Shown here one piece after another: positions 13,588-35,995 of a DNA stretch of 64,000 nucleotides (the first letter of the stretch is position 1; each line of letters starts with the position of its first letter). A program made the translations under genes and the position numbers. The DNA lies in assembly GCA_037447655.1 (NCBI GenBank), contig JBBHKE010000190.1, positions 208,617 to 272,616 on the forward strand, given 5' to 3'. Under the pieces are notes generated by a model. The model saw nothing but the letters and a program-made list of their open reading frames with translations. It did no database searches and was not told where the DNA came from. This stretch comes from Zygnema cylindricum (Eukaryota; Streptophyta; Zygnematophyceae; Zygnematales; Zygnemataceae).

Positions 13588-14861
13588 TGTTGTTTTTGAA
13601 GATTTAGTTTCGTGCGTATGTGAAATTTGATGCGCACACGACGTTTCGTGCGTATATATTTACATGATGTACTGTGGAGTTTTGAACAGTTTGCGGTTCG
13701 GGGGAATTAAATGTACGAGTAAATTTAATGGAGTAATTGAGTGGCACGAAATGTGAGAGGAAATGGACGGCGGATCGCGAAGCGATCCGACGTGAGATAA
13801 TCGACGAAGATAAAATGGTACGTCGCACGTACGAAACATAATGCGACAGGTGTACTTTATTTACGACATACATTTATCGAAAAATGACGTGTACCTTAAA
13901 TGCGACAAGGCGCATTTATGACGAAGTACGTGATTTCAGTACGGACAGGATTTGGAACGTACGAATTGATTTCGGCAAGTTGATTCGTGGTACACGTGGA
14001 AGGCGGACGGCGTCCGCCGATATTTTCAAGGGATCTCATTATCTTTAATGACGTATTATTAGGTGGACCGTACATATGCGATGTCGGTTCACTACGTGGA
14101 TGTATCTACGAGTGACTAAGCGAGTTGTCGCTAATGACGCGTATTTTGGGGACGCGTCGGTATAAATATTTGATACAACATTATTTTGTCTTATGTGTAT
14201 TATTAATTTAGTATTGATTATGACATTTTTATTTAAGTGATCAATTAGGGTTTCGATAGTTTAATTTGTGTGTGTACGATGTCGTACTTGTAGACAAGTG
14301 TACGCTTACGATTGCTTGACTTTCAGGTGTACGCTTACGATTAATGTTTCTTAGTAATTGGCTATTATGGTTAAATATGACTTAATGACAGTTTGGTTAT
14401 TTTGACACTTAGTGATTCATTGACAGCTCACAAGTGTATATATAGGAATGAGCTTTGTTAGGAATTAATAATCAATGCTGGTTAGTAAAGTGGGGACCAA
14501 AGATGTAGTGTTTTAGGGTTGTCAATTAGGTCATGCACTTTGAATGATATAATGATTATATCTTGGTTATACTCTTGTTTATGTGTGATGCATTTGTTTT
14601 TATTATTTATGTTATTTTATATATGTTTGATATGCATTGTTTATGCATTTGTCCTAGGGTTTGTTTATGTCGATTATTCCATCAAACCTTAGATATTGTC
14701 ATAGGGTTTATTTATGTTGATTATTCCATGAAACCCTAAATGTTGTTGTATGTTAAATGGAGGATGCATTTCAAATGATTGTTCATTGGCCTAGCTTCGC
14801 CTAGCTTCTTGCATGATAGTTTGGGTGGCTTCTGCGGTCTATTTTAGACCAAAGAACAACA
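13588..14861 (+). repeat. Solo LTR (1375-bp LTR family) inside copia-1 integrase
   Basis: 1274 bp, starts TGTTGTTTTTGAAG and ends AAAGAACAACA, flanked by the perfect 5-bp duplication TCTAC (13583-13587 and 14862-14866). Removing it rejoins copia-1 integrase codons. It has the GGATCGCGAAGCGATCC palindrome, a TATA-like TATATATAGG at about 14430, and two copies of a CGTAAGCGTACAC-type motif, all shared with the LTRs at 29351 and 31652. No internal region remains, so it arose by LTR-LTR recombination after insertion. Confidence 0.92.
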
Positions 14862-16463
14862 TCTACTACCCCAAGCTTTTTCATTTCCCTCAACCTATAA
14901 AAATGCACATGCCCCAACCGCTTATGCCAAATCATCACCTTAGGAACACCAACATAATAAGCATTCTTCTTTTCATTACTCAGGTTAAGCCTAAACATTC
15001 CTTGGCTACCCTTATCTGCTGTGAAGTAAACTTCATTCCCATACTTAGCTGTAAAGACTCCCTTTCTGGTGAAAGTATCAAACTCTTTGTCATCTAATAC
15101 AGACGTAGAGACAAGATTTTTACTCAGCTGAGGAATGTAAAGTACATCTGAGAATGTAAGTATAGAAGTCTTACCCTCCACTAAGACTTTCAGATCTACT
15201 GATCCCACTAGATTTGTAGTAACCACTTTCCCATCCCCATAATCTATCTCTATAGTAGGAATCTTTCTTAGCTTAGTGAAGAGTTCTTTATCACGACACA
15301 TATGCATGGATGCACCTGAGTCGATGATCCATCCTTCCTGTGGAGCTTCCAGAATTGCTCCAAGGGCACACTTCTGCCTCCGAGGGATCTCCTTCTCCTC
15401 CAGACTCTCGTCAAGAAGAAGCTCCCCATCCTCCACAGAGGACTCATCCTCGGTTTCTCCTGACACTTTTGTAACCACAAGTGCCTTTTTCTTCCCTCCG
15501 GAAGAACCTCCTCCACGGTTCTCTAGGAGTCTCAGCTCCGACAGCTTGACAAAATCTGCAATAAAGTGTCCCGGCTTTTTGCAATAATGACAAAGACCCT
15601 TTGGGGGCCTCTGTCCCCCAGAATGATCTCTTTCCCCTCTATAAGGTTTCTTTGTGTCCTTCCCCCATCGGTCCCTTCCTGCTGCTAGAGCTTGAATGCT
15701 CTTTCCTCCTCTCCTAATCTCCATTGTGTTTTCCTGCACAAGTATCATCTTGACTACTGTGTTCCATTTCCATGAACTATCAGGCATTCCCTGTACTCGG
15801 TACACTATGTTTTCGAACTCATTTGGTAATTTCATGATAAGGGTGTTAACTTTCATTTTCATTGTACCTGTCCACCCGGCACTTTCCATTTCCATATACA
15901 AACATGAAAGATCATTACAGTAATCTAACATCTTTCCTCCTTTGTACTTAACTCAATAGCTTTTGCTCAGCCAACTGGAGCTTCTGAATAGTTCCAGCTC
16001 TATAAATCTCCACTAAACTCTCCCACAACTCCTCGGCCTTGTAAATGTGAAGATGAGGAGTGGCCAAACCTTGAGTGAGGTGCCTCAGAATGAAGTTCTT
16101 GGCAGCCATGTTTACATCCTCCCACATTTGAGTATCGTTCTCCACGGTCTTCACGGTCGCCGCTCCCGATACTGTGGCAATAGGAGTGAGGGGTGTCTCC
16201 TTTCCTTTCCCCTTTTCGGACACACTACTGTCCCCATCATCAGCCTCCTCCGCTGAGGCAGCCGTTGTTGCAGAAAACCTTACTCCCCTAAATCCTGGTG
16301 GAGTTCCCGAAGGTGGACGTTTCACTTGTCCACTGACGATACCCTAGTATCGTTTTTCACACAAAGCTCCCATCATCATGGCTTCCCAATAGATGAACCC
16401 AGATCCATTGAAGGTGGGCACCCTAGAGGGTGGGCCCATAACCTGTAATTCTGTGTCCTCCAT
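14862..16463 (-). pseudogene. Copia-1 gag, protease and integrase zinc region
   Basis: Gag opens with an ATG at 16463-16461 inside the 5' LTR and reads through the primer site as ...ELQVMGPPSRVPTFNG. A TAG at 16344-16346 replaces the Trp of the conserved RYWGIVSGQV. A frameshift near 15940 breaks the frame again. From 15931 come the UBN2-type gag region, a zinc knuckle CHYCKKPGHFIADF whose last Cys is Phe, the protease box IIDSGASMHMC with its catalytic Asp intact, and the integrase HKRLGHVHFYRLREMKKLGV. The frame then runs into the solo LTR. At least three independent lesions mark it as dead, although large parts stay readable. Confidence 0.88.
16429..16443 (-). promoter_or_regulatory. Copia-1 primer-binding site, half tRNA-iMet type
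   Basis: The plus strand reads GGTGGGCCCATAACC directly against the LTR end. From memory this equals the anticodon arm of plant initiator tRNA-Met (CAT is the anticodon). The minus strand of the element therefore pairs with the middle of the tRNA, as in Drosophila copia, and not with the usual TGGTATCAGAGC 3'-end site. Confidence 0.8.
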
Positions 16464-19257: not shown

Positions 19258-19262
19258 TGAGC
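19258..19262. repeat. Left 5-bp target duplication of the array (TGAGC)
   Basis: TGAGC sits immediately before LTR1 and is repeated at 33282-33286 immediately after the end of LTR4. One pair of duplications brackets the whole 14-kb array. Confidence 0.9.
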
Positions 19263-20573
19263 TGAAATTCTATGGGCTCCATTGCCACACAGAATTCGCA
19301 GGTCCAAAGGAAGCTAATCTAGATAGTGCCGACTCCAAGTTAATATAAACCTAAATGATTGACCCCTTGACAATCAGAACCCCATTACAGCTTCACCCCT
19401 GTGAAGTAAGACTCTCTGTGTGCTCAGTTTCACTACAGAATGCAAAGTTAGAATATGAGTATAGGATAACATTCCCCACTTTGACTTTCCCTTAGAAATG
19501 CAGCCACCCAGGCAGGCAAAAAACTCTGACCGACTACACCCCTGTGTAGCCTGGACTCCCCTAAGTCCGCAGCAACAAGAATCACTGAATTTGGTCAACT
19601 GAATTGATAGTTATGGCTGGCCAAAGTTTAACATTTATACAAGGTGCTCTCTGGGAGAGGCAGCTACCTACCAAAAATATTCTAAGTTCTAAACCCCTCT
19701 CTAAACCCTCTAGTACTGAGGTACGGACCAATCACATTACTGTATAGTACATAAAGGTACAGATGTCGGTGTACCTTTTGTACGGACATCGTACGACATG
19801 GCTCAAAAGTCAACAATTGTCCTATCTGGATTCGCTCTTGTATTCTCCGGAATTCCTGCCTCCAAATCTTATCTCTCCACGTGGCGCCAGGTCATGCCGC
19901 GTCAGAAAACGGTACCGTACAAGAAAGTACTAGTGCCGGAGTACTTTCTGTACGTACATTGTACGATGTCGCCATAGTGCGACATTTGTCACTTCCGGAT
20001 TTGTTTTCTGCCGTTCCGTAAATTCCGTAATCCAGTACGTTGTTGCCACGTGTCATCCGGAGTGGCGGAGTCCGCAAACCGCCAAATTGTCCTTTCCTCG
20101 AGACCGGCGCTAACCACGGCCGTCCGATTCATATAGAGATTAAATACGAACCGTCGAAACAAATGTCCGTACTATTTGTTTCGTCCGGTACTAATAGTAC
20201 AACTGATTCTATGTTCTATAGACCGTAACCCAGTTAAATGGAATTCCCTACCTGTAATTATATAAATATCTATCAAACCCTATATGTTCTAGTTCTGGTC
20301 CTAGACTAAATGGACAAAGCTAACTCCTATGGGACGATTCACCGACGGTTGGTACCAGGATCAATTTCTGGGTCCGTCAACTGCCTTTTTGGTAAACATA
20401 CCTTTATTATCTATTCCTGTCTCTCTGGAGAGCCTAGGCAGCCATGGCTCTAGCTCCCTTTCCAGCCTTCAGTGACTACGACAAGTGTGGGGGCTTGGAG
20501 AAGGGAGTCAGGGGCAGACTGCCTCTACTCTTTTCTATCTAATAAAGACCTAGAAAATACCCAAATATCAACA
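19263..20573 (-). repeat. Array LTR1
   Basis: 1311 bp, plus-strand ends TGAAATTCTATGGG and AAATATCAACA. It is the 3'-most LTR of the array in element orientation and directly follows the TGAGC duplication. Confidence 0.92.
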
Positions 20574-20608
20574 CTCCCCTTATTTTCTAGTCTACTTCCT
20601 TTCAACTA

Positions 20609-22291
20609 TTACAAACAAAAATAAACAAAACACTCCCTCCCCTTTTTCCTTTTTCTTTTCTTTTTCCTTTTATATAACTTATGAAATATGCTCTCGTATT
20701 TAAAACAATGCATTAGATGAAATGAAATAATAATTGCATCACACATTTCATTTAGCATCCCACTTATCATAAATCCGAGCGAAGATTTTATCCACCTCAT
20801 TTCTTTTCCATCCACACTTTCTAAATTTATTCCCAATAAATATTTATCCTCCCCTAAACCTTTCATTAAATATTCCTCTTCTTCCTTATCCTTTAAAACC
20901 CCTTCTAGTTTCACTTCTCCCCTTTCCTCGTAATCCGTTGAAGTCTCCCTTTCCGACCAGTTTTCTAATTCCAAACTACCTATAAAATTATCCTCATTAA
21001 TTTTATTTTTCCCGTTTTCACTTATTGATCCTAGTTCTGACTTTCTCATTTCTAAGTCATACACTTTACACTCCTCCACATCCTCAAGTACCTCCTCTCT
21101 CTTTACTTCCCTTATACCTCCAAAAGCACACTGTTGCCTTCGTGGAATTTCTGTGTACTTTTCTCTCTTCTCCATTCTACCGATGTAAAGAAGCTCCAAG
21201 ATTTTTTCATCCTCTTTCTCCTCTTCCCCTTCTTCCTCTTCATTCACACTCCAACTTCTAAGTTCTTCCAAACGAGGACACTCCTCCATATAGTGACCCG
21301 GTTTCCTACAAGCGAAGCAAACCCCCTTTTTCAAAGTTCCCCTTTCTTTTCCTCTCCCTCTCTTTCCACCGAAGTTCCGATAAGGTTTACCTTTGTCCTT
21401 CTTCCTTTCATCACGCTTCCGCTCGTCACCGCCGTTCCTCACATCACGCTTCCGCCAGTCACCACCAGCTGTAAATGCAGTCACCCTTTCACTTCCCCTA
21501 CGAAGCTCCAAAGTGCTTTCTCTCACAAGAATTATTCCCATGGTAATGCTCCAAGTCCACGAGGAGACATCCATTCCCTGCATACGGTAAATGATGTCTT
21601 CGTACTCATAAGGAAGCTTTATGATTAGTGTATTAATCTTTCTCTCCTCAGATTCTACATATCCCGTACTAGCAAGCTCAACATATAACCCAGCAATATC
21701 ATTGCAAAACTCTATCATGCTACCGCCTTTATAAACATAGGCCTCTATCTCTTGTCTTACTAACTGCTGCCTCTGTATAGTCTCACTCTTGTAAATCTGA
21801 ATTAGTGTGTCCCAAATTTCCGACGACTTGGTTAGATTTAAAAGAGTGATAGCTATAGACTTAGACACATATCTAAGTATGAGATGTTTTGCTATAGTGT
21901 TTTTATATTCCCAAATTTTTCTATCATTTTCTTCAGTTTTTGGTTCAGTTATAACCCCCACAAGTGGAACCGTAGGCGAGAGCCTAGCTCCCCTCACCAT
22001 AGGTGTCCCTTTATCCTTCTCCCCTATTTCCCCTTCCACGGTAATGATCTTCCCTTCCCCTTCCGTTGCACCTGAACTCCGGTTGGTTTTCTGGGCAGCC
22101 CCAGATGATTCTCCATAGTGATCTCCTCCAAAGCCCGGTGGCGGACACCTCACTTGTCCCGAAACAATTCCCCACAAGTGCTTTTCGAAAAGTAATCCCT
22201 CCATCGTAAACTCCCAATAAGTGAAGTCTGTTCCATCAAACATAGGCACCCTAGATGGTGGGCCCATAACCTGAAATTCTATGGGCTCCAT
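20609..22291 (-). CDS. Gag-like polyprotein with pol remnants, copy 1
   Basis: 560 residues from the ATG at 22291, which lies inside LTR2. The first codons (MEPIEFQVMGPPSRVP) cross the LTR end and the primer site. Seen in order: a UBN2/gag-type N-terminal half (FDGTDFTYWEF, LWGIVSGQV, LTKSSEIWDTLIQIYKSETI), a basic region, a zinc knuckle CFACRKPGHYMEEC with all four ligands (about residues 325-338), then an acidic stretch. The tail joins two pol scraps in frame. EDVEECKVYDLEM resembles the copia-1 integrase end EDVKGYRVYDLAK, and MKGLGEDKYLLGI resembles RT MKDLGEAKYILGI. Protease, the integrase core and the RT catalytic box are absent. It would package RNA into particles but needs enzymes from another element. 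Confidence 0.85.
   Translation of the reverse strand: MEPIEFQVMGPPSRVPMFDGTDFTYWEFTMEGLLFEKHLWGIVSGQVRCPPPGFGGDHYGESSGAAQKTNRSSGATEGEGKIITVEGEIGEKDKGTPMVRGARLSPTVPLVGVITEPKTEENDRKIWEYKNTIAKHLILRYVSKSIAITLLNLTKSSEIWDTLIQIYKSETIQRQQLVRQEIEAYVYKGGSMIEFCNDIAGLYVELASTGYVESEERKINTLIIKLPYEYEDIIYRMQGMDVSSWTWSITMGIILVRESTLELRRGSERVTAFTAGGDWRKRDVRNGGDERKRDERKKDKGKPYRNFGGKRGRGKERGTLKKGVCFACRKPGHYMEECPRLEELRSWSVNEEEEGEEEKEDEKILELLYIGRMEKREKYTEIPRRQQCAFGGIREVKREEVLEDVEECKVYDLEMRKSELGSISENGKNKINEDNFIGSLELENWSERETSTDYEERGEVKLEGVLKDKEEEEYLMKGLGEDKYLLGINLESVDGKEMRWIKSSLGFMISGMLNEMCDAIIISFHLMHCFKYESIFHKLYKRKKKRKRKKGRECFVYFCL
22257..22271 (-). promoter_or_regulatory. Array copy 1 primer-binding site, inside gag
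   Basis: GGTGGGCCCATAACC on the plus strand touches LTR2. The complement contains ATG at 22267-22265, in frame with gag (codons V-M-G-P-P). The match is to the anticodon arm of initiator tRNA-Met. Equivalent sites are 25266-25280 and 28275-28289. Confidence 0.8.
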
Positions 22292-23582
22292 TGCCACACA
22301 GAATTCGCAGGTCCAAAGGAAGCTAATCTAGATAGTGCCGACTCCAAGTTAATATAAACCTAAATGATTGACCCCTTGACAATCAGAACCCCATTACAGC
22401 TTCACCCCTGTGAAGTAAGACTCTCTGTGTGCTCAGTTTCACTACAGAATGCAAAGTTAGAATATGAGTATAGGATAACATTCCCCACTTTGACTTTCCC
22501 TTAGAAATGCAGCCACCCAGGCAGGCAAAAAACTCTGACCGAATACACCCCTGTGTAGCCTGGACTCCCTTGAGTCCGCAGCAACAAGAATCACTGAATT
22601 TGGTCAACTGAATTGATAGTTATGGCTGGCCAAAGTTTGACATTTATACAAGGTGCTCTCTGGGAGAGGCAGCTACCTACCAAAAATATTCTAAGTTCTA
22701 AACCCCTCTCTAAACCCTCTAGTACTGAGGTACGGACCAATCACATTACTGTATAGTACATAAAGGTACAGATGCCGGTGTACCTTCTGTACGGACATCG
22801 TACGACATGGCTCAAAAGTCAACAATTGTCCTATCTGGATTCGCTCTTGTATTCTCCGGAATTCCTGCCTCCAAATCTTATCTCTCCACGTGGCGCCAGG
22901 TCATGCCGCGTCAGAAAACGGTACCGTACAAGAAAGTACTAGTGCCGGAGTACTTTCTGTACGTACATTGTACGATGTCGCCATAGTGCGACATTTGTCA
23001 CTTCCGGATTTGTTTTCTGCCGTTCCGTAAATTCCGTAATCCAGTACGTTGTTGCCACGTGTCATCCGGAGTGGCGGAGTCCGCAAACCGCCAAATTGTC
23101 CTTTCCTCGAGACCGGCGCTAACCACGGCCGTCCGATTCATATAGAGATTAAATACGAACCGTCGAAACAAATGTCCGTACTATTTGTTTCGTCCGGTAC
23201 TAATAGTACAACTGATTCTATGTTCGATAGACCGTAACCCAGTTAAATGGAATTCCCTACCTGTAATTATATATATATCTATCAAACCCTATATGTTCTA
23301 GTTCTGGTCCTAGACTAAATGGACAAAGCTAACTCCTATGGGACGATTCACCGACGGTTGGTACCAGGATCAATTTCTGGGTCCGTCAACTGCCTTTTTG
23401 GTAAACATACCTTTATTATCTATTCCTGTCTCTCTGGAGAGCCTAGGCAGCCATGGCTCTAGCTCCCTTTCCAGCCTTCAGTGACTACGACAAGTGTGGG
23501 GGCTTGGAGAAGGGAGTCAGGGGCAGACTGCCTCTACTCTTTTCTATCTAATAAAGACCTAGAAAATACCCAAATATCAACA
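22272..23582 (-). repeat. Array LTR2
   Basis: 1311 bp. Serves as 5' LTR of copy 1 and 3' LTR of copy 2. It shares marker variants with LTR3. Confidence 0.92.
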
Positions 23583-23617
23583 CTCCCCTTATTTTCTAGT
23601 CTACTTCCTTTCAACTA

Positions 23618-25300
23618 TTACAAACAAAAATAAACAAAACACTCCCTCCCCTTTTTCCTTTTTCTTTTCTTTTTCCTTTTATATAACTTATGAAATATGC
23701 TCTCGTATTTAAAACAATGCATTAGATGAAATGAAATAATAATTGCATCACACATTTCATTTAGCATCCCACTTATCATAAATCCGAGCGAAGATTTTAT
23801 CCACCTCATTTCTTTTCCATCCACACTTTCTAAATTTATTCCCAATAAATATTTATCCTCCCCTAAACCTTTCATTAAATATTCCTCTTCTTCCTTATCC
23901 TTTAAAACCCCTTCTAGTTTCACTTCTCCCCTTTCCTCGTAATCCGTTGAAGTCTCCCTTTCCGACCAGTTTTCTAATTCCAAACTACCTATAAAATTAT
24001 CCTCATTAATTTTATTTTTCCCGTTTTCACTTATTGATCCTAGTTCTGACTTTCTCATTTCTAAGTCATACACTTTACACTCCTCCACATCCTCAAGTAC
24101 CTCCTCTCTCTTTACTTACCTTATACCTCCAAAAGCACACTGTTGCCTTCGTGGAATTTCTGTGTACTTTTCTCTCTTCTCCATTCTACCGATGTGAAGA
24201 AGCTCCAAGATTTTTTCATCCTCTTTCTCCTCTTCCCCTTCTTCCTCTTCATTCACACTCCAACTTCTAAGTTCTTCCAAACGAGGACACTCCTCCATAT
24301 AGTGACCCGGTTTCCTACAAGCGAAGCAAACCCCCTTTTTCAAAGTTCCCCTTTCTTTTCCTCTCCCTCTCTTTCCACCGAAGTTCCGATAAGGTTTACC
24401 TTTGTCCTTCTTCCTTTCATCACGCTTCCGCTCGTCACCGCCGTTCCTCACATCACGCTTCCGCCAGTCACCACCAGTTGTAAATGCAGTCACCCTTTCA
24501 CTTCCCCTACGAAGCTCCAAAGTGCTTTCTCTCACAAGAATTATTCCCATGGTAATGCTCCAAGTCCACGAGGAGACATCCATTCCCTGCATACGGTAAA
24601 TGATGTCTTCGTACTCATATGGAAGCTTTATGATTAGTGTATTAATCTTTCTCTCCTCAGATTCTACATATCCCGTACTAGCAAGCTCAACATATAACCC
24701 AGCAATATCATTGCAAAACTCTATCATGCTACCGCCTTTATAAACATAGGCCTCTATCTCTTGTCTTACTAACTGCTGCCTCTGTATAGTCTCACTCTTA
24801 TAAATCTGAATTAGTGTGTCCCAAATTTCCGACGACTTGGTTAGATTTAAAAGAGTGATAGCTATAGACTTAGACACATATCTAAGTATGAGATGTTTTG
24901 CTATAGTGTTTTTATATTCCCAAATTTTTCTATCATTTTCTTCAGTTTTTGGTTCAGTTATAACCCCCACAAGTGGAACCGTAGGCGAGAGCCTAGCTCC
25001 CCTCACCATAGGTGTCCCTTTATCCTTCTCCCCTATTTCCCCTTCCACGGTAATGATCTTCCCTTCCCCTTCCGTTGCACCTGAACTCCGGTTGGTTTTC
25101 TGGGCAGCCCCAGATGATTCTCCATAGTGATCTCTTCCAAAGCCCGGTGGCGGACACCTCACTTGTCCCGAAACAATTCCCCACAAGTGCTTTTCGAAAA
25201 GTAATCCCTCCATCGTAAACTCCCAATAAGTGAAGTCTGTTCCATCAAACATAGGCACCCTAGATGGTGGGCCCATAACCTGAAATTCTATGGGCTCCAT
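23618..25300 (-). pseudogene. Gag-like polyprotein, copy 2, broken by a stop
   Basis: Collinear with copy 1 but with one nonsense change near 24114: the Glu codon after FGGIR is TAA (GAA in copies 1 and 3). The zinc knuckle stays in the first part (25300-24116, about 394 residues); the pol-derived tail (24088-23618) is cut off. The same base change makes an AGGTAAGT string that resembles a splice donor, which may be chance. A truncated Gag with the knuckle could still be made. Confidence 0.85.
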
Positions 25301-26591
25301 TGCCACACAGAATTCGCAGGTCCAAAGGAAGCTAATCTAGATAGTGCCGACTCCAAGTTAATATAAACCTAAATGATTGACCCCTTGACAATCAGAACCC
25401 CATTACAGCTTCACCCCTGTGAAGTAAGACTCTCTGTGTGCTCAGTTTCACTACAGAATGCAAAGTTAGAATATGAGTATAGGATAACATTCCCCACTTT
25501 GACTTTCCCTTAGAAATGCAGCCACCCAGGCAGGCAAAAAACTCTGACCGACTACACCCCTGTGTAGCCTGGACTCCCTTGAGTCCGCAGCAACAAGAAT
25601 CACTGAATTTGGTCAACTGAATTGATAGTTATGGCTGGCCAAAGTTTGACATTTATACAAGGTGCTCTCTGGGAGAGGCAGCTACCTACCAAAAATATTC
25701 TAAGTTCTAAACCCCTCTCTAAACCCTCTAGTACTGAGGTACGGACCAATCACATTACTGTATAGTACATAAAGGTACAGATGCCGGTGTACCTTCTGTA
25801 CGGACATCGTACGACATGGCTCAAAAGTCAACAATTGTCCTATCTGGATTCGCTCTTGTATTCTCCGGAATTCCTGCCTCCAAATCTTATCTCTCCACGT
25901 GGCGCCAGGTCATGCCGCGTCAGAAAACGGTACCGTACAAGAAAGTACTAGTGCCGGAGTACTTTCTGTACGTACATTGTACGATGTCGCCATAGTGCGA
26001 CATTTGTCACTTCCGGATTTGTTTTCTGCCGTTCCGTAAATTCCGTAATCCAGTACGTTGTTGCCACGTGTCATCCGGAGTGGCGGAGTCCGCAAACCGC
26101 CAAATTGTCCTTTCCTCGAGACCGGCGCTAACCACGGCCGTCCGATTCATATAGAGATTAAATACGAACCGTCGAAACAAATGTCCGTACTATTTGTTTC
26201 GTCCGGTACTAATAGTACAACTGATTCTATGTTCGATAGACCGTAACCCAGTTAAATGGAATTCCCTACCTGTAATTATATAAATATCTATCAAACCCTA
26301 TATGTTCTAGTTCTGGTCCTAGACTAAATGGACAAAGCTAACTCCTATGGGACGATTCACCGACGGTTGGTACCAGGATCAATTTCTGGGTCCGTCAACT
26401 GCCTTTTTGGTAAACATACCTTTATTATCTATTCCTGTCTCACTGGAGAGCCTAGGCAGCCATGGCTCTAGCTCCCTTTCCAGCCTTCAGTGACTACGAC
26501 AAGTGTGGGGGCTTGGAGAAGGGAGTCAGGGGCAATCTGCCTCTACTCTTTTCTATCTAATAAAGACCTAGAAAATACCCAAATATCAACA
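25281..26591 (-). repeat. Array LTR3
   Basis: 1311 bp, 5' LTR of copy 2 and 3' LTR of copy 3, closest to LTR2 by shared variants. Confidence 0.92.
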
Positions 26592-26626
26592 CTCCCCTTA
26601 TTTTCTAGTCTACTTCCTTTCAACTA

Positions 26627-28309
26627 TTACAAACAAAAATAAACAAAACACTCCCTCCCCTTTTTCCTTTTTCTTTTCTTTTTCCTTTTATATAACTTAT
26701 GAAATATGCTCTCATATTTAAAACAATGCATTAGATGAAATGAAATAATAATTGCATCACACATTTCATTTAGCATGCCACTTATCATAAATCCGAGCGA
26801 AGATTTTATCCACCTCATTTCTTTTCCATCCACACTTTCTAAATTTATTCCCAATAAATATTTATCCTCCCCTAAACCTTTCATTAAATATTCCTCTTCT
26901 TCCTTATCCTTTAAAACCCCTTCTAGTTTCACTTCTCCCCTTTCCTCGTAATCCGTTGAAGTCTCCCTTTCCGACCAGTTTTCTAATTCCAAACTACCTA
27001 TAAAATTATCCTCATTAATTTTATTTTTCCCGTTTTCACTTATTGATCCTAGTTCTGACTTTCTCATTTCTAAGTCATACACTTTACACTCCTCCACATC
27101 CTCAAGTACCTCCTCTCTCTTTACTTCCCTTATACCTCCAAAAGCACACTGTTGCCTTCGTGGAATTTCTGTGTACTTTTCTCTCTTCTCCATTCTACCG
27201 ATGTGAAGAAGCTCCAAGATTTTTTCATCCTCTTTCTCCTCTTCCCCTTCTTCCTCTTCATTCACACTCCAACTTCTAAGTTCTTCCAAACGAGGACACT
27301 CCTCCATATAGTGACCCGGTTTCCTACAAGCGAAGCAAACCCCCTTTTTCAAAGTTCCCCTTTCTTTTCCTCTCCCTCTCTTTCCACCGAAGTTCCGATA
27401 AGGTTTACCTTTGTCCTTCTTCCTTTCATCACGCTTCCGCTCGTCACCGCCGTTCCTCACATCACGCTTCCGCCAGTCACCACCAGTTGTAAATGCAGTC
27501 ACCCTTTCACTTCCCCTACGAAGCTCCAAAGTGCTTTCTCTCACAAGAATTATTCCCATGGTAATGCTCCAAGTCCACGAGGAGACATCCATTCCCTGCA
27601 TACGGTAAATGATGTCTTCGTACTCATATGGAAGCTTTATGATTAGTGTATTAATCTTTCTCTCCTCAGATTCTACATATCCCGTACTAGCAAGCTCAAC
27701 ATATAACCCAGCAATATCATTGCAAAACTCTATCATGCTACCGCCTTTATAAACATAGGCCTCTATCTCTTGTCTTACTAACTGCTGCCTCTGTATAGTC
27801 TCACTCTTATAAATCTGAATTAGTGTGTCCCGAATTTCCGACGACTTGGTTAGATTTAAAAGAGTGATAGCTATAGACTTAGACACATATCTAAGTATAA
27901 GATGTTTTGCTATAGTGTTTTTATATTCCCAAATTTTTCTATCATTTTCTTCAGTTTTTGGTTTAGTTATAACCCCCACAAGTGGAACCGTAGGCGAGAG
28001 CCTAGCTCCCCTCACCATAGGTGTCCCTTTATCCTTCTCCCCTATTTCCCCTTCCACGGTAATGATCTTCCCTTCCCCTTCCGTTGCACCTGAACTCCGG
28101 TTGGTTTTCTGGGCAGCCCCAGATGATTCTCCATAGTGATCTCCTCCAAAGCCCGGTGGCGGACACCTCACTTGTCCCGAAACAATTCCCCACAAGTGCT
28201 TTTCGAAAAGTAATCCCTCCATCGTAAACTCCCAATAAGTGAAGTCTGTTCCATCAAACATAGGCACCCTAGATGGTGGGCCCATAACCTGAAATTCTAT
28301 GGGCTCCAT
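26627..28309 (-). CDS. Gag-like polyprotein with pol remnants, copy 3
   Basis: 560 residues, intact. The ATG at 28309 lies in LTR4 and the frame crosses the primer site as in copy 1. It differs from copy 1 by about four residues (for example ITKPKT for ITEPKT, EIRDT for EIWDT, FTTGG for FTAGG, LLHIG for LLYIG). Domains are the same: UBN2-type gag, CCHC knuckle, acidic stretch, integrase-like and RT-like scraps, and a very basic C-terminus (YKRKKKRKRKKGRE). That two of three copies stay open argues for recent amplification or for selection on Gag. Confidence 0.85.
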   Translation of the reverse strand: MEPIEFQVMGPPSRVPMFDGTDFTYWEFTMEGLLFEKHLWGIVSGQVRCPPPGFGGDHYGESSGAAQKTNRSSGATEGEGKIITVEGEIGEKDKGTPMVRGARLSPTVPLVGVITKPKTEENDRKIWEYKNTIAKHLILRYVSKSIAITLLNLTKSSEIRDTLIQIYKSETIQRQQLVRQEIEAYVYKGGSMIEFCNDIAGLYVELASTGYVESEERKINTLIIKLPYEYEDIIYRMQGMDVSSWTWSITMGIILVRESTLELRRGSERVTAFTTGGDWRKRDVRNGGDERKRDERKKDKGKPYRNFGGKRGRGKERGTLKKGVCFACRKPGHYMEECPRLEELRSWSVNEEEEGEEEKEDEKILELLHIGRMEKREKYTEIPRRQQCAFGGIREVKREEVLEDVEECKVYDLEMRKSELGSISENGKNKINEDNFIGSLELENWSERETSTDYEERGEVKLEGVLKDKEEEEYLMKGLGEDKYLLGINLESVDGKEMRWIKSSLGFMISGMLNEMCDAIIISFHLMHCFKYESIFHKLYKRKKKRKRKKGRECFVYFCL

Positions 28310-29350
28310 TGCCACACAGAATTCGCAGGTCCAAAGGAAGCTAATCTAGATAGTGCCGACTCCAAGTTAATATAAACCTAAATGATTGACCCCTTGACAA
28401 TCAGAACCCCATTACAGCTTCACCCCTGTGAAGTAAGACTCTCTGTGTGCTCAGTTTCACTACAGAATGCAAAGTTAGAATATGAGTATAGGATAACATT
28501 CCCCACTTTGACTTTCCCTTAGAAATGCAGCCACCCAGGCAGGCAAAAAACTCTGACCGACTACACCCCTGTGTAGCCTGGACTCCCCTGAGTCCGCAGC
28601 AACAAGAATCACTGAATTTGGTCAACTGAATTGATAGTTATGGCTGGCCAAAGTTTGACATTTATACAAGGTGCTCTCTGGGAGAGGCAGCTACCTACCA
28701 AAAATATTCTAAGTTCTAAACCCCTCTCTAAACCCTCTAGTACTGAGGTACGGACCAATCACATTACTGTATAGTACATAAAGGTACAGATGCCGGTGTA
28801 CCTTCTGTACGGACATCGTACGACATGGCTCAAAAGTCAACAATTGTCCTATCTGGATTCGCTCTTGTATTCTCCGGAATTCCTGCCTCCAAATCTTATC
28901 TCTCCACGTGGCGCCAGGTCATGCCGCGTCATAAAACGGTACCGTACAAGAAAGTACTAGTGCCGGAGTACTTTCTGTACGTACATTGTACGATGTCGCC
29001 ATAGTGCGACATTTGTCACTTCCGGATTTGTTTTCTGCCGTTCCGTAAATTCCGTAATCCAGTACGTTGTTGCCACGTGTCATCCGGAGTGGCGGAGTCC
29101 GCAAACCGCCAAATTGTCCTTTCCTCGAGACCGGCGCTAACCACGGCCGTCCGATTCATATAGAGATTAAATACGAACCGTCGAAACAAATGTCCGTACT
29201 ATTTGTTTCGTCCGGTACTAATAGTACAACTGATTCTATGTTCTATAGACCGTAACCCAGTTAAATGGAATTCCCTACCTGTAATTATATAAATATCTAT
29301 CAAACCCTATATGTTCTAGTTCTGGTCCTAGACTAAATGGACAAAGCTAA

Positions 29351-30725
29351 TGTTGTTCTTTGGTCTAAAATAGACCGCAGAAGCGACCCAAACTATCATG
29401 CAAAAAGCTAAGCCAAAAATAGGTCGACGAACAATCATTTGAAATGCATCCTCCATTTAACATACAACAACATTTAGGGTTTCATGGAATAATCAACATA
29501 AATAAACCCTATGACAACATCTAAGGTTTGATGGAATAATCGACATAAACAAACCCTAGGACAAATGCATAAACAATGCATATCAAACATATATAAAAAC
29601 ATAAATAAATAATAACACACAAATGCATCACACATAAACAAGAGTATTATCAAAGTATAATCATTATATCATTCAAAGTGCATGACCTAATCGGCAACCC
29701 TAAAATACTACATCTTCGGTCCCCACTTTACTAACCAGCATTGATGATTAAATTCCTAACAAAGCTCATTCCTATATATACACTTGTGAGCTGTCAATGA
29801 ATGACTAAGTGTCAAAATTACCAAAGTAAATTACATAACTGTCACTAAATCAAACTAATCGTAAGCGTACACCTGAGAGTCAAGCAATCGTAAGCGTACA
29901 CTTGTCTACAAGTATGATATTGTACACACACAAATTAAACTATCAAAACCCTAATTGATCACTTAAATATAAACATCATAATCAACGCTAATTTATAATA
30001 ACGCAAAAGACAAAACAATGTTACTCCAAATATTTACACCGACGCATCCACATATCCGCGTCATAAGTGACAACTTGCTTAGTCACTCGTAGATAAATCC
30101 ACATAGTGAACCGACATCGTATATGTACGGTCCACCTAATTAACACGTCATCAAACAATATGATCCCTTGGAAATATCGGCGGACGCCATCCGCCTTTCA
30201 CGTGTACCACGAATCACTTGTCAAACAATCCGGAACGTCCAAAAATAAATATCGTGTGATTGACGCGATTTCGCGTCACCACTACATAAAAATCTCGGCG
30301 GCCTATATCCGCCGTCCGTCGCTCTTAATCGGCACCTTTGATGTCGCGCCGCGTGGTCATAAAAATCCACTTGTCGAAACCTCGTACAATCGAAATCATT
30401 TTCGTACCGCAAGCGCGTCCCTTGTAATAAATGCGCTTGTCGCATTTTGTTTCGTACGCCATGCGTACATTTTCACACTTCGAAAATTTCAAATCGGATC
30501 GCTTCGCGATCCGCCGTCCATTTACATTGCGCATTCCGCGCCACTCAATTAGTCCTTCACGTACATTTAATTTTCTTCGTACATTTACTCCCCCAATCCG
30601 CAAATCAATTCGAACCTCCACACTACATCGCGTAAATGCGCACGCACGCGAACACGCGCACGCACGAAACGCTCCGTACGCACGAAACGCTGTGTACGCA
30701 CGAAACTAAGTTTTCAAAAACAACA
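29351..30725 (-). repeat. 3' LTR of the young non-coding element
   Basis: 1375 bp, TGTTGTTCTTTGG to AAAAACAACA on the plus strand. Contains a 45-bp direct repeat (around TTCATGGAATAATCAACATA and TTGATGGAATAATCGACATA), two AATCGTAAGCGTACAC motifs, a TATATATAGG box on the minus strand near 29772, the palindrome GGATCGCTTCGCGATCC, and terminal ACGCACGAAACGCT repeats. Confidence 0.93.
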
Positions 30726-31651
30726 CTCCCCCGAAAAATTAGTCTCGTGCATCCATGGCGCCACGTCATAAGCTGTCACCAATGTTACCTGCTGTCACAC
30801 CTGCTTTCAACTGCCTTCTCCATCTTAATCCTCCAAATGCCTCCGCCAGAATTTTCTCACTTGTTCCACCATCGCTTCCGCTAACTCCACATACCATCCA
30901 AATTTCATAATACATAATATATATATTTTCATTTTCTTTTCTCTTTTCTCAACAATATCTAAATCCGAAAATTTCCCATAAAAATACATAAATAATAAAC
31001 TATTTTCCGAAAATCAATTCTACCAATAATAAATAAAATTCCAACAAAAATTACCACATTTTCCTCTAACTACCATAACAATTTCCAAAAAATAAAACTT
31101 TCCAAATTTTCTAAATTTCGCGACCCGCGTACTTAATCCCACAAAATAAAACATTAAAAATAAAAGTAAATAAAATCTACATTCTCTATCCCAATTTTAA
31201 GCTCCAATAATGTTACATTTCCCAAAACTACCAACAATCCGAAAAATAAAATCTCATAACATCCCATAATTATAGATCCACAAATTCGGATCTTTCACCA
31301 AATGCCACAACTCCACCTTTCGGATCTCTCCACTAAATGTCAAATCTCCACATTTCGAAATGCTTCATTAAAAATAAACATTTATTTTCCAAAACTAAAA
31401 TATTGATTCTCAAAATAAATCATTTTCATTGAGGGTAGACATTTCGACACTGTCACTAAGTTAACCCTTGGGGCGATGCAAGATTAAACTCGGCACATAC
31501 CAACACTATGATAAGGCCGATCTCATGGGTACACAGACACCATTACTGCAATACAACCAGCAAGGACAATATTAACCCGCTACAATGCATGTGACACAAA
31601 CCTATCTCGACTTAACGTAACATATGATAGATGGGGTGTGGGCCCATAACC
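30726..31651 (-). other. Non-coding internal region of the young element
   Basis: 926 bp, AT-rich, no domain on either strand. Starts (element sense) with the half-tRNA primer site at 31651-31638 and ends with the polypurine tract at 30738-30726. Likely holds the RNA packaging signal used with a helper's Gag. Confidence 0.75.
31638..31651 (-). promoter_or_regulatory. Primer-binding site of the young element, half tRNA-iMet
   Basis: GTGGGCCCATAACC on the plus strand, 14 bases shared with the copia-1, copia-2 and array sites, although the flanking sequence is unrelated. Here it is not part of a gag frame. Confidence 0.8.
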
Positions 31652-33026
31652 TGTTGTTCTTTGGTCTAAAATAGACCGCAGAAGCGACCCAAACTATCAT
31701 GCAAAAAGCTAAGCCAAAAATAGGTCGACGAACAATCATTTGAAATGCATCCTCCATTTAACATACAACAACATTTAGGGTTTCATGGAATAATCAACAT
31801 AAATAAACCCTATGACAACATCTAAGGTTTGATGGAATAATCGACATAAACAAACCCTAGGACAAATGCATAAACAATGCATATCAAACATATATAAAAA
31901 CATAAATAAATAATAACACACAAATGCATCACACATAAACAAGAGTATTATCAAAGTATAATCATTATATCATTCAAAGTGCATGACCTAATCGGCAACC
32001 CTAAAATACTACATCTTCGGTCCCCACTTTACTAACCAGCATTGATGATTAAATTCCTAACAAAGCTCATTCCTATATATACACTTGTGAGCTGTCAATG
32101 AATGACTAAGTGTCAAAATTACCAAAGTAAATTACATAACTGTCACTAAATCAAACTAATCGTAAGCGTACACCTGAGAGTCAAGCAATCGTAAGCGTAC
32201 ACTTGTCTACAAGTATGATATTGTACACACACAAATTAAACTATCAAAACCCTAATTGATCACTTAAATATAAACATCATAATCAACGCTAATTTATAAT
32301 AACGCAAAAGACAAAACAATGTTACTCCAAATATTTACACCGACGCATCCACATATCCGCGTCATAAGTGACAACTTGCTTAGTCACTCGTAGATAAATC
32401 CACATAGTGAACCGACATCGTATATGTACGGTCCACCTAATTAACACGTCATCAAACAATATGATCCCTTGGAAATATCGGCGGACGCCATCCGCCTTTC
32501 ACGTGTACCACGAATCACTTGTCAAACAATCCGGAACGTCCAAAAATAAATATCGTGTGATTGACGCGATTTCGCGTCACCACTACATAAAAATCTCGGC
32601 GGCCTATATCCGCCGTCCGTCGCTCTTAATCGGCACCTTTGATGTCGCGCCGCGTGGTCATAAAAATCCACTTGTCGAAACCTCGTACAATCGAAATCAT
32701 TTTCGTACCGCAAGCGCGTCCCTTGTAATAAATGCGCTTGTCGCATTTTGTTTCGTACGCCATGCGTACATTTTCACACTTCGAAAATTTCAAATCGGAT
32801 CGCTTCGCGATCCGCCGTCCATTTACATTGCGCATTCCGCGCCACTCAATTAGTCCTTCACGTACATTTAATTTTCTTCGTACATTTACTCCCCCAATCC
32901 GCAAATCAATTCGAACCTCCACACTACATCGCGTAAATGCGCACGCACGCGAACACGCGCACGCACGAAACGCTCCGTACGCACGAAACGCTGTGTACGC
33001 ACGAAACTAAGTTTTCAAAAACAACA
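31652..33026 (-). repeat. 5' LTR of the young non-coding element
   Basis: 1375 bp, same sequence as 29351-30725 as far as I can see. It is followed by the GCTAA duplication and the rest of array LTR4. Confidence 0.93.
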
Positions 33027-33286
33027 GCTAACTCCTATGGGACAATTCACCGACGGTTGGTACCAGGATCAATTTCTGGGTCCGTCAACTGCCTTTTTGG
33101 TAAACATACCTTTATTATCTATTCCTGTCTCTCTGGAGAGCCTAGGCAGCCATGGCTCTAGCTCCCTTTCCAGCCTTCAGTGACTACGACAAGTGTGGGG
33201 GCTTGGAGAAGGGAGTCAGGGGCAGACTGCCTCTACTCTTTTCTATCTAATAAAGACCTAGAAAATACCCAAATATCAACATGAGC

Positions 33287-35995
33287 CACCTGTTTTTCCA
33301 GGATCCTTTTGCTGCTCCTTCTCCCCCTTGAAACTCCAAAGCTGGGATGGAGGGAAGTCTTGGATTTCTCCTTACTGTCTCATCGGCTCCCCTATCCATG
33401 GAAGCCGGTTCCGGTCCCTCCTCGTCTGTCTACTCGATGTCTATAGGAATATGTGACGTTTCCTGTAGATTGCTTGTGTCTTGGATCTCCCTTAAATCAG
33501 CAATCCCTGTTTTACTCATGTCCCTTTTGAAAGGATGGAGTTCTCCTCATTTTTAGACTCAAACCTGGTTCGTATCTTTTTGGTATATTTTAAAGGGTCA
33601 AATGATTTTCCTTCATCCATGACAACTAGGTATTTGACCAAAATGATATCTCTATTTGCGAAGTCATAGACTATATATCCCTTGACATCCTCATTATATC
33701 CTACAAAGTATTCGGGTTTTCCATTATCATCTAGTTTCCAGTTTTTCTTATCAATGTCAAGACTGTAAACTTGGCTACTGAATACTTTAAGGTGAGAGAT
33801 ATCAGGTTTCCTTCCCACCCATCTCTCATAAGGTGTTATTCCTTATATAGCTGAGGTAAAGACTATATTCTTAATGTAGTAAGCACAGTTCATGGCCTCT
33901 GCCCAAAATCTCTTTCCTATTTTTTTGTCGGCCAACATACTGCATGCACTATCTCGTAGTGTTCGGTTCAACCTCTCAGCTACCCAATTTTGTTCCGGGT
34001 TATATGGTACGGTTTTTTGGTGCTAAACTCCCTCATCTCTCAAGTGTTCCTCAAACTCGTTAGAGGTATATTCCCCCCCATTATCACTCTCTATTCTCTT
34101 AATGGGGTTTCCATGCAACTTCTCACTCCAGGCTTTATATTTTTTGAAGTAAGTTGATGTTTCACACTTTGTTTTTAGGAAGAAGACTCTAGAGTATCTA
34201 GACCAATCATCGGTTATTGTCAACATAAACCTCTTTCCTCCAACCAAATGCACTTTTGGAGGTCCCTAGATATCTCTGTGGACTAGATCTAGTACTTTCT
34301 CACTTTTATATGTGGTGGCTTTGGGAAAAGGAAGTCTGTGAGCCTTACCGTGAGCACAACCACTACAATCATTCGTCATTTCATTATCCCCAAACTGAAT
34401 GCCTTCTACTACCCCAAGCTTTTTCATTTCCCTCAACCTATCAAAATTCACATGCCTCTATCGTTTATGCCAAACCATCAACTTAGGAACACCAACATAG
34501 TAAGCATTCTTCTTTTCATTACTCAGGTTAAGCCTAAACATTCCTTGGCTACCCTTATCTTCGATGAAGTAAACTTCATCCCCATACTTAGTTGTGAATA
34601 CTCCATTTTTAGTGAAGGTATCAAACTCTTTGTCATCTAACACAGACGTAGAGACAAGATTTTTACTCAGCTGAGGAATCTAGAGTACATCTGAGAATGT
34701 GATTATAGAAGTCTTACCCTCTGCTAAAACTTTCAGATATACTGATCTCACTAGATCTGTAGTAACCACTCTCCCATCCCCATACTCTATTTATATAGTA
34801 GGGATTTTCCTTAGCTTTGTGAAGAGGTCCTTGTCATGACACATATGCATGGATGCACCTGAGTTGATGATCGATCCTTCCTTTGGAGCTTCCCGAATTG
34901 CTCCAAAGGAGCACTTCTGTCTCCGAGGGATCTCCTTCTCCTCCAGACTCTCGTTAAGAAGAACCTCCCCATCCTCCTCAGAGGACTTGTCCTCGATCTC
35001 TCTTGTCACCTTTGTGACCAAAAGTGCCTTTTTCTTCCATCCGAAAGAACCCCCTCCATGGTTCTCTTTGAGCCTCAGCTTTGATAGCTTGACACAATCC
35101 GCGATAAAGTGTCTCGGCTTTTTACAAAAATGACATGGGCCCTTTGGGGGCCTCGGTCCTCCAGGCTGAACTCTTTCTACTTTGTATGGTTTTTTCGGAT
35201 CGGCTTTCCACTTGTCCCCTCCGGTGGCTAGAGCTTGAGCGCTCTTTCCACCTCTCTTGATTTCAATCGTGTTCTCCTGCACAAGTTTTATGCGGACCAA
35301 TGTATTCCACTTCCATGAACTATCACTCATTTCTTCTACTTTGTACACTATATTCCCATACTCGACAGGTAACTTCATGATGAGAGTGTTAACCCTCATC
35401 TTCATTGTACCTTTCCATCTGGCACTCTCGATCTCCATATACAAACAAGATAGATCACAACAGTAGTATAACATCTTTCCCCCTTTATAAGTATAATTTT
35501 CCAACTTTTGCTCTACCAACCGGACCTCCTGAATTGTACCAACTCCATAGATCTGTATCAAACTCACCCACAACTCCTTGGCCTTGTAAACTTGAAGGTG
35601 AGGAGTTGCCAAAGCTTGTGTGAGGTGTCTCAAAATGAAGTTCTTAGCAGCCATGTTGGTGTCTTCCCACATTTGAGTATCGATCTCCACGCTCTTCACG
35701 ATCGCCGCTCGGGTATCGTGGGAATAAAAGCAATAGAAGTATGAGGTCTCATTTTATTTCCCCTTTTCGGACACACTGCTGTCCTCATCATCTGCCTCCT
35801 CTGCTGCAGTAGATGTTGCTAAAAAAAACCTTATTCCACCAAATCCCGGTAGTGTTCCCTGAGGTGGAGGTTTCACTTGTCCACTAACAATACCCCAGTA
35901 TCGTTTATCACACAAAGCCCATGTCATCTTGGATTCCCCAATAGATAAACCCTGATCCATTGAAGATGGGCACCTTAGAGGGTGGGCCCATAACC
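33287..35995 (-). pseudogene. Copia-2 gag, protease and integrase
   Basis: Reads leftwards from the primer site as VMGPPSKVPIFNGSGFIYWG. Gag (35699 to about 35000) has a complete zinc knuckle CHFCKKPRHFIADC. The protease box is INSGASMHMC, with the catalytic Asp changed to Asn. The integrase zinc and core pieces (NFDRLREMKKLGVVEG, CSGCAHGKAHRLPFPKAT, ITDDWSRYSRVFFLK, ESDNGGEYTSNEFEE, WMGRKPDISHLKVFS-like) sit in separate frames with stops. The upstream LTR ATG is followed by a stop (M-E-D-T-stop), so Gag could start only at the ATG within the primer site. The element is dead. Confidence 0.87.
35981..35995 (-). promoter_or_regulatory. Copia-2 primer-binding site, half tRNA-iMet type
   Basis: GGTGGGCCCATAACC on the plus strand, touching the LTR at 35996, the same 15-mer as in copia-1 and the array. 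Confidence 0.8.

Follow-up and report, generated by a model that had tools for sequence, protein, structure and literature searches.

A putative half-tRNA primer site in frame with gag in a copia-type retrotransposon family of Zygnema cylindricum

A tandem array of gag-only elements

The window, i.e., the whole 64-kb stretch of Zygnema cylindricum DNA that was analysed, contains an array of LTR retrotransposon copies at 19263-33281 that is composed of four 1311-bp LTRs and three gag-only interiors and is bounded as a whole by a TGAGC duplication (19258-19262 and 33282-33286). On the minus strand, LTR 1 occupies 19263-20573 (with its length of 1311 bp taken from the match to L005), LTR 2 occupies 22272-23582, LTR 3 is placed by register at 25281-26591 (period 3009), and LTR 4 begins with a first part at 28290-29350 and resumes at 33032-33281 after a nested insertion. 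The first and third copies carry a gag-only open reading frame of 560 codons plus stop (20609-22291 and 26627-28309, minus strand), and the second carries a shortened one of 394 codons plus stop (24116-25300, minus strand), all counted from the methionine codon M1 described below. Past its zinc knuckle, the gag-only frame has an acidic and then lysine-rich tail (20609-21200). The three copies look like one tandem insertion of a gag-only, non-autonomous unit. Tandem LTR retrotransposons with shared inner LTRs are on record from plants and have been attributed to single insertions (PMC11899658); the Zygnema array would resemble those described there as a tandem from one insertion but differs in that its unit holds only gag.

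The nested insertion that splits LTR 4 is itself an LTR element (29351-33026) with a GCTAA duplication and LTRs that are identical over 1375 bp. Its 926-bp interior has no open run above 62 codons and carries a half-tRNA primer site with one mismatch (31637-31651, minus strand, matching at 14 of 15 nt), without an in-frame ATG just upstream. A fragment similar to this element (88.6%) lies at 13951-14862 within copia-1, which together with copia-2 also carries the primer site described in the following.

A primer site matching the anticodon arm of the host's initiator tRNA-Met

The 15-mer GGTGGGCCCATAACC had been proposed to abut an LTR at five places, and we find it at all five and nowhere else in the window: at 22257-22271, 25266-25280 and 28275-28289 in the first, second and third array copies, at 16429-16443 in copia-1, and at 35981-35995 in copia-2, in each case in an element coded on the minus strand. 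None of 100 dinucleotide shuffles contained a match, and across the genome there are 2955 plus 3019 exact matches (5974) compared to 3 plus 3 for a reversed control. Read on the coding strand, the LTR ends in CA and is followed without spacer by the complement, GGTTATGGGCCCACC. All counts across copies given below refer to a sample of 100 listed sites out of the 5974 in the genome plus the five sites of the window, which gave 102 distinct copies after three of these 105 sites had been dropped for identical flanks. These copies are related to each other, and because they were picked by the exact 15-mer, the sample necessarily shows this sequence as invariant and its AUG in strong context. The final two LTR bases are CA in 91 of the 102 distinct copies.

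Searching the genome with a 38-base piece of plant initiator tRNA (with up to three mismatches allowed) gave eight matches, five of them exact. Among these eight, ARAGORN called six distinct tRNA-Met (CAT) genes, all of which hold the 15-mer exactly, in agreement with the original prediction that it equals the anticodon arm of initiator tRNA-Met; the other two matches were not called by ARAGORN, and one of them has a mismatch within the 15-mer. As is typical of an initiator, one of the host genes has an A1-T71 closing pair, the sequence GATCGAAAC in its T loop and an anticodon stem with three G-C pairs; the tRNA matches the plant initiator tRNA-Met. In this 72-nt gene, the 15-mer corresponds to nt 25-39 with the anticodon at nt 33, and therefore the primer would be a 5' half-tRNA.

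Counted from the LTR edge, complementarity to the tRNA spans 15 nt in 72 of the 102 copies, 16 nt in 28 (the first array copy pairs over 16 nt with the next base), and 17 and 18 nt in one copy each. On the LTR side, pairing ends because nt 40 of the tRNA is a C that faces the LTR-terminal base, which is an A in 98/102 copies. The cDNA of published hemiviruses is described as beginning from tRNA nt 40 (PMC1181622), which is given in standard numbering and translates into ordinal nt 39 of the host gene. The reading as a primer site for the 5' half of initiator tRNA-Met is thus supported at the level of sequence.

The gag frame probably begins inside the LTR and crosses the primer site

The frame GTT-ATG-GGC-CCA-CC (V-M-G-P-P) through the primer site leads into a protein that matches the Pfam family Retrotran_gag_2 (E 7.1e-16). 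In the first array copy, an in-frame ATG (M1, 22289-22291) lies 20 nt before the LTR end; the last 20 nt of the LTR (22272-22291, minus strand) run from M1 to the first two bases of Gag codon 7, the primer site forms codons 8-12, and the primer-site AUG is codon 9 (22265-22267, minus strand) and not the first. The second and third array copies have the same frame with M1 at 25298-25300 and 28307-28309, respectively. The proposal that the complement of the 15-mer lies in the gag frame stands for the array copies. In copia-1 and copia-2, M1 is present and the frame is the homologous one but interrupted, with stops reached 32 and 28 codons on from GTT, respectively. Copia-2 has a further stop ahead of the primer site, a TAA at Gag codon 5.

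Across the 102 copies, open runs downstream of the primer site, counted up to 200 codons at most, have medians of 6, 74 and 21 codons in the three frames, and 0, 26 (the V-M-G frame) and 0 copies are open for 180 codons. In 93 copies, an ATG is found at exactly -20 relative to the LTR end, and the next commonest of the 98 offsets tried is found in only three. No stop separates M1 from the primer site in 81 copies (81 of the 93 with M1). Among the 31 copies that are open for at least 150 codons, M1 is present in 31 and the stretch up to the primer site is stop-free in 30, compared to 51 clean M1-to-primer-site stretches among the remaining 71 copies (Fisher p 0.003, which is more a description than a test because the copies are related rather than independent and their decay goes together). 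Gag most likely starts inside the LTR at M1, with the primer-site AUG as codon 9. The idea that the primer-site AUG supplies Gag initiation is not supported for the main start, since the in-frame ATG of the LTR is found in 31/31 open copies.

The LTR-coded codons themselves show only partial constraint. Column variation averages 0.61 bits over the final 20 LTR bases compared to 1.27 bits over the preceding 40 (70 copies), with little variation at M1 and E2 and variable codons 3, 4 and 6. Between M1 and Q7 (codons 2-7), variation amounts to 0.76, 0.59 and 0.64 bits at codon positions 1, 2 and 3, so that the third-position excess seen deeper in gag is absent from these codons. Translation of the LTR codons is therefore suggested by M1, the frame and the leader rather than by codon evolution.

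An ATG-poor leader and two start contexts

The region upstream of M1 is depleted of ATG. Among the 69 copies with 900 nt of upstream sequence (related, and hence not 69 independent cases), there are 0.09-0.70 ATG per 100 nt from -350 to -20 but 1.07-2.26 from -900 to -350, delimiting a depleted zone of ca. 330 nt. The 80 nt before M1 hold ten ATG in these 69 copies compared to 110 on average over 200 mononucleotide shuffles; the five other orders of the letters A, T and G occur 48-136 times each, and 11 copies inspected singly show the same depletion. The gag-less nested element, a control that consists of this one element, has 18 ATG in the final 330 nt of its LTR and nearly the same primer site. 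Given this ATG-poor leader, M1 appears to be the first AUG that a scanning ribosome would meet.

The two AUGs differ in context. At the primer-site AUG, positions -3 and +4 are both G in 102/102 copies, as the tRNA dictates, whereas M1 has G at +4 in 90/93 copies but a purine at -3 in only 17/93, leaving a weak -3 base in the other 76. Under the rules of scanning, an AUG in weak context lets some ribosomes pass to the next one, and some ribosomes should thus pass M1 and start at codon 9 (M9). Predicted RNA pairing of the 31 open copies leaves M1 open with a value of 0.86, and the primer site shows no special openness (0.37 compared to an average of 0.36), a result that is neutral with regard to the explanation preferred below. 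N-myristoylation of a Gag that starts with M-G at the primer site was considered and dropped, as a proline follows the glycine and the signal rule excludes this residue there.

Family depth and classification

Seven Gags chosen from open copies were aligned; identity to the first is 48-51%, except for one at 82%, and all share M1, E2, E5 and Q7 as well as S13, R14, V15 and P16 on either side of the built-in VMGPP. Maintenance of the gag frame across the wider family, another element of the original prediction, is in this way supported within the host genome. The more divergent copy L018 also reads from its primer site into VMGPPPWLPIFDGSNYHY in the V-M-G frame, though it is decayed; just upstream (L018:900-1300), an LTR end is discernible by eye that resembles that of the nested element. 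Outside the host genome, no relative of the array Gag was found among 3539 candidates at E 0.001, none of a seven-row Gag profile among the best 7991 candidates at E 0.01, and no match to a 17-mer (CA, primer site and edge) in viral contigs. The reverse transcriptase has 3175 relatives, with 39-46% identity among the 120 matches listed, which are silent on Gag N-termini.

Besides the array Gag, the corresponding pieces of copia-2 and L001 match Retrotran_gag_2 above its cut-off, while that of copia-1 falls below. In the L001/L109 copy, one piece has an rve domain at residues 61-159 and RVT_2 from residue 439, i.e., integrase before reverse transcriptase, which together with the copia-type gag, TG...CA LTRs and a short target-site duplication is characteristic of Pseudoviridae (Ty1/copia). 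As in hemiviruses, the primer site adjoins the LTR and would pair with initiator tRNA-Met in its anticodon region, and, as in Ty1, gag is predicted from the sequence to begin in the 5' LTR with a frame that crosses the primer site. We therefore regard the family, with some confidence that extends jointly to the explanation of M1 and the in-frame AUG given below, as probable hemivirus-type Ty1/copia elements with a half-tRNA-Met primer site.

Relationship to known systems

The Zygnema family differs from Drosophila copia, whose gag begins far downstream of the primer site. The hemivirus genus as described comprises Drosophila copia, 1731, yeast Ty5 and Volvox Osser (PMC1181622, PMC8515867), and the half-tRNA primer of its members likewise ends at standard nt 40 of initiator tRNA-Met. 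Among plant Ty1/copia lineages, half-tRNA-Met primer sites are reported for Osser, Bryco and part of Gymco-II (Neumann et al. 2019, PMC6317226), which share with the Zygnema family a copia-type organisation and an LTR-adjoining site for one half of tRNA-Met. A primer site inside gag, which had been thought to be new, is already documented for yeast Ty1, where the PBS lies within the GAG ORF but pairs with the acceptor stem of tRNAiMet and so contains no anticodon complement (PMC4974528). In HIV-1, an altered PBS of the initiator-tRNA type that places an AUG upstream of gag is reported to lower virus production, an effect put down to diverted ribosomes (PMC1797187). There, too, scanning ribosomes meet a PBS AUG, though the published case is artificial, with the PBS upstream of gag and a harmful AUG that is not part of it. 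Half-tRNA-Met priming in plant copia elements and a PBS inside gag are thus known separately; among the papers listed in our searches of open-access literature, none describes a half-tRNA-Met primer site that is read in frame as Gag, i.e., their combination.

How the element may live with the AUG of its primer site

The explanation that we consider the most credible, and hold with modest confidence, is that the in-frame primer site defuses an AUG that the element cannot avoid. The 5' half (nt 1-39) of initiator tRNA-Met would prime reverse transcription while paired over nt 25-39, and since this pairing takes in the CAU anticodon, the element must carry GUUAUGGG with its strong-context AUG right after the LTR. 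Gag would begin at M1, 20 nt upstream within the LTR and behind an AUG-poor leader, with the primer site held in the gag frame as V8-M9-G10-P11-P12. A ribosome that leaks past M1 would then start at M9 and make a Gag eight residues shorter rather than be lost in another frame. From the contexts of the two AUGs and the precedent of the HIV-1 PBS AUG (PMC1797187), we infer that the in-frame site makes this AUG harmless and that this harmlessness would be the reason why the frame is kept.

A simpler possibility is that Gag starts in the LTR as in Ty1, with an inert AUG at codon 9 and no selection on the frame. In Ty1, the GAG ORF likewise spans a PBS, there of a quite different type that pairs with the acceptor stem (PMC4974528), so that such an overlap needs no AUG-related reason, and the sequence of the 15-mer leaves all three reading frames free of stops; the frame may have been kept by common descent alone, for which any one of three open frames would do. 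An inert codon 9 fits less well with the weak -3 base of M1 in 76/93 copies next to a primer-site AUG in strong context throughout, given that some ribosomes should reach M9, and we regard this simpler reading as possible but rather doubtful. Far less plausible is that Gag truly starts at the primer-site AUG, with the ATG in the LTR being incidental. It would fit that 9/102 copies have a TAA at Gag codon 5, i.e., before the primer site (a further 6/102 have a TAG at codon 7), that in one of them, L001, the frame past the primer site is otherwise intact, with open stretches of 504 and then 937 codons, and that L018 has gag in the V-M-G frame without an in-frame ATG upstream. Yet L001 is the only stop-bearing copy open for at least 150 codons, and its 5' LTR has TAA where the 3' LTR has GAA, with both LTRs 99.8% identical over 1049 bp, which places the origin of the TAA at the time of insertion or later. 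None of the nine TAA copies has a nearest relative among the 102 that shares the TAA, M1 is followed by no stop before the primer site in the remaining 30 open copies, and L018 is decayed with many stops. We take the TAA and TAG copies as losses rather than as members of a lineage whose Gag would begin at the primer site, and in view of the GAA in the 3' LTR of L001 and the TAA-free nearest relatives, we reject the primer-site AUG as sole start of Gag. The change from G to T that creates the TAA (LTR position -8, e.g., L001:1493-1495 and copia-2) is found in several lineages, and T in 9/102 copies at this site compares to 0-4 at 15 other G-majority sites listed.

The original prediction had also raised a switch in which intact initiator tRNA translates the shared AUG and the cleaved half pairs with it for copying, so that their balance sets the fate of the RNA. 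Anatomy permits this, as the complement of the anticodon is an in-frame Gag AUG, but the main start looks like M1 and no result favours a switch between translating and copying. Furthermore, an elongating ribosome reads codon 9 with elongator tRNA-Met and not the initiator, and priming in the copia family is expected within particles, apart from ribosomes, both of which count against a switch and make it improbable in our view. Equally unlikely appears the narrower version in which each RNA would be shifted, depending on how many tRNA halves are available, between translation of a short Gag from M9 with the intact initiator and copying with the cleaved half.

Under the explanation that we prefer, in which an in-frame primer site defuses its own AUG, the significance of the Zygnema family extends to other retrotransposons. 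Wherever the anticodon half of initiator tRNA-Met serves as primer, a strong AUG inevitably lies between the LTR and gag, which creates a conflict between priming and scanning, and the Zygnema family with its thousands of copies would represent one natural way around it. Other half-tRNA-Met elements are then predicted to either keep their gag frame through the primer site or carry a short upstream ORF.
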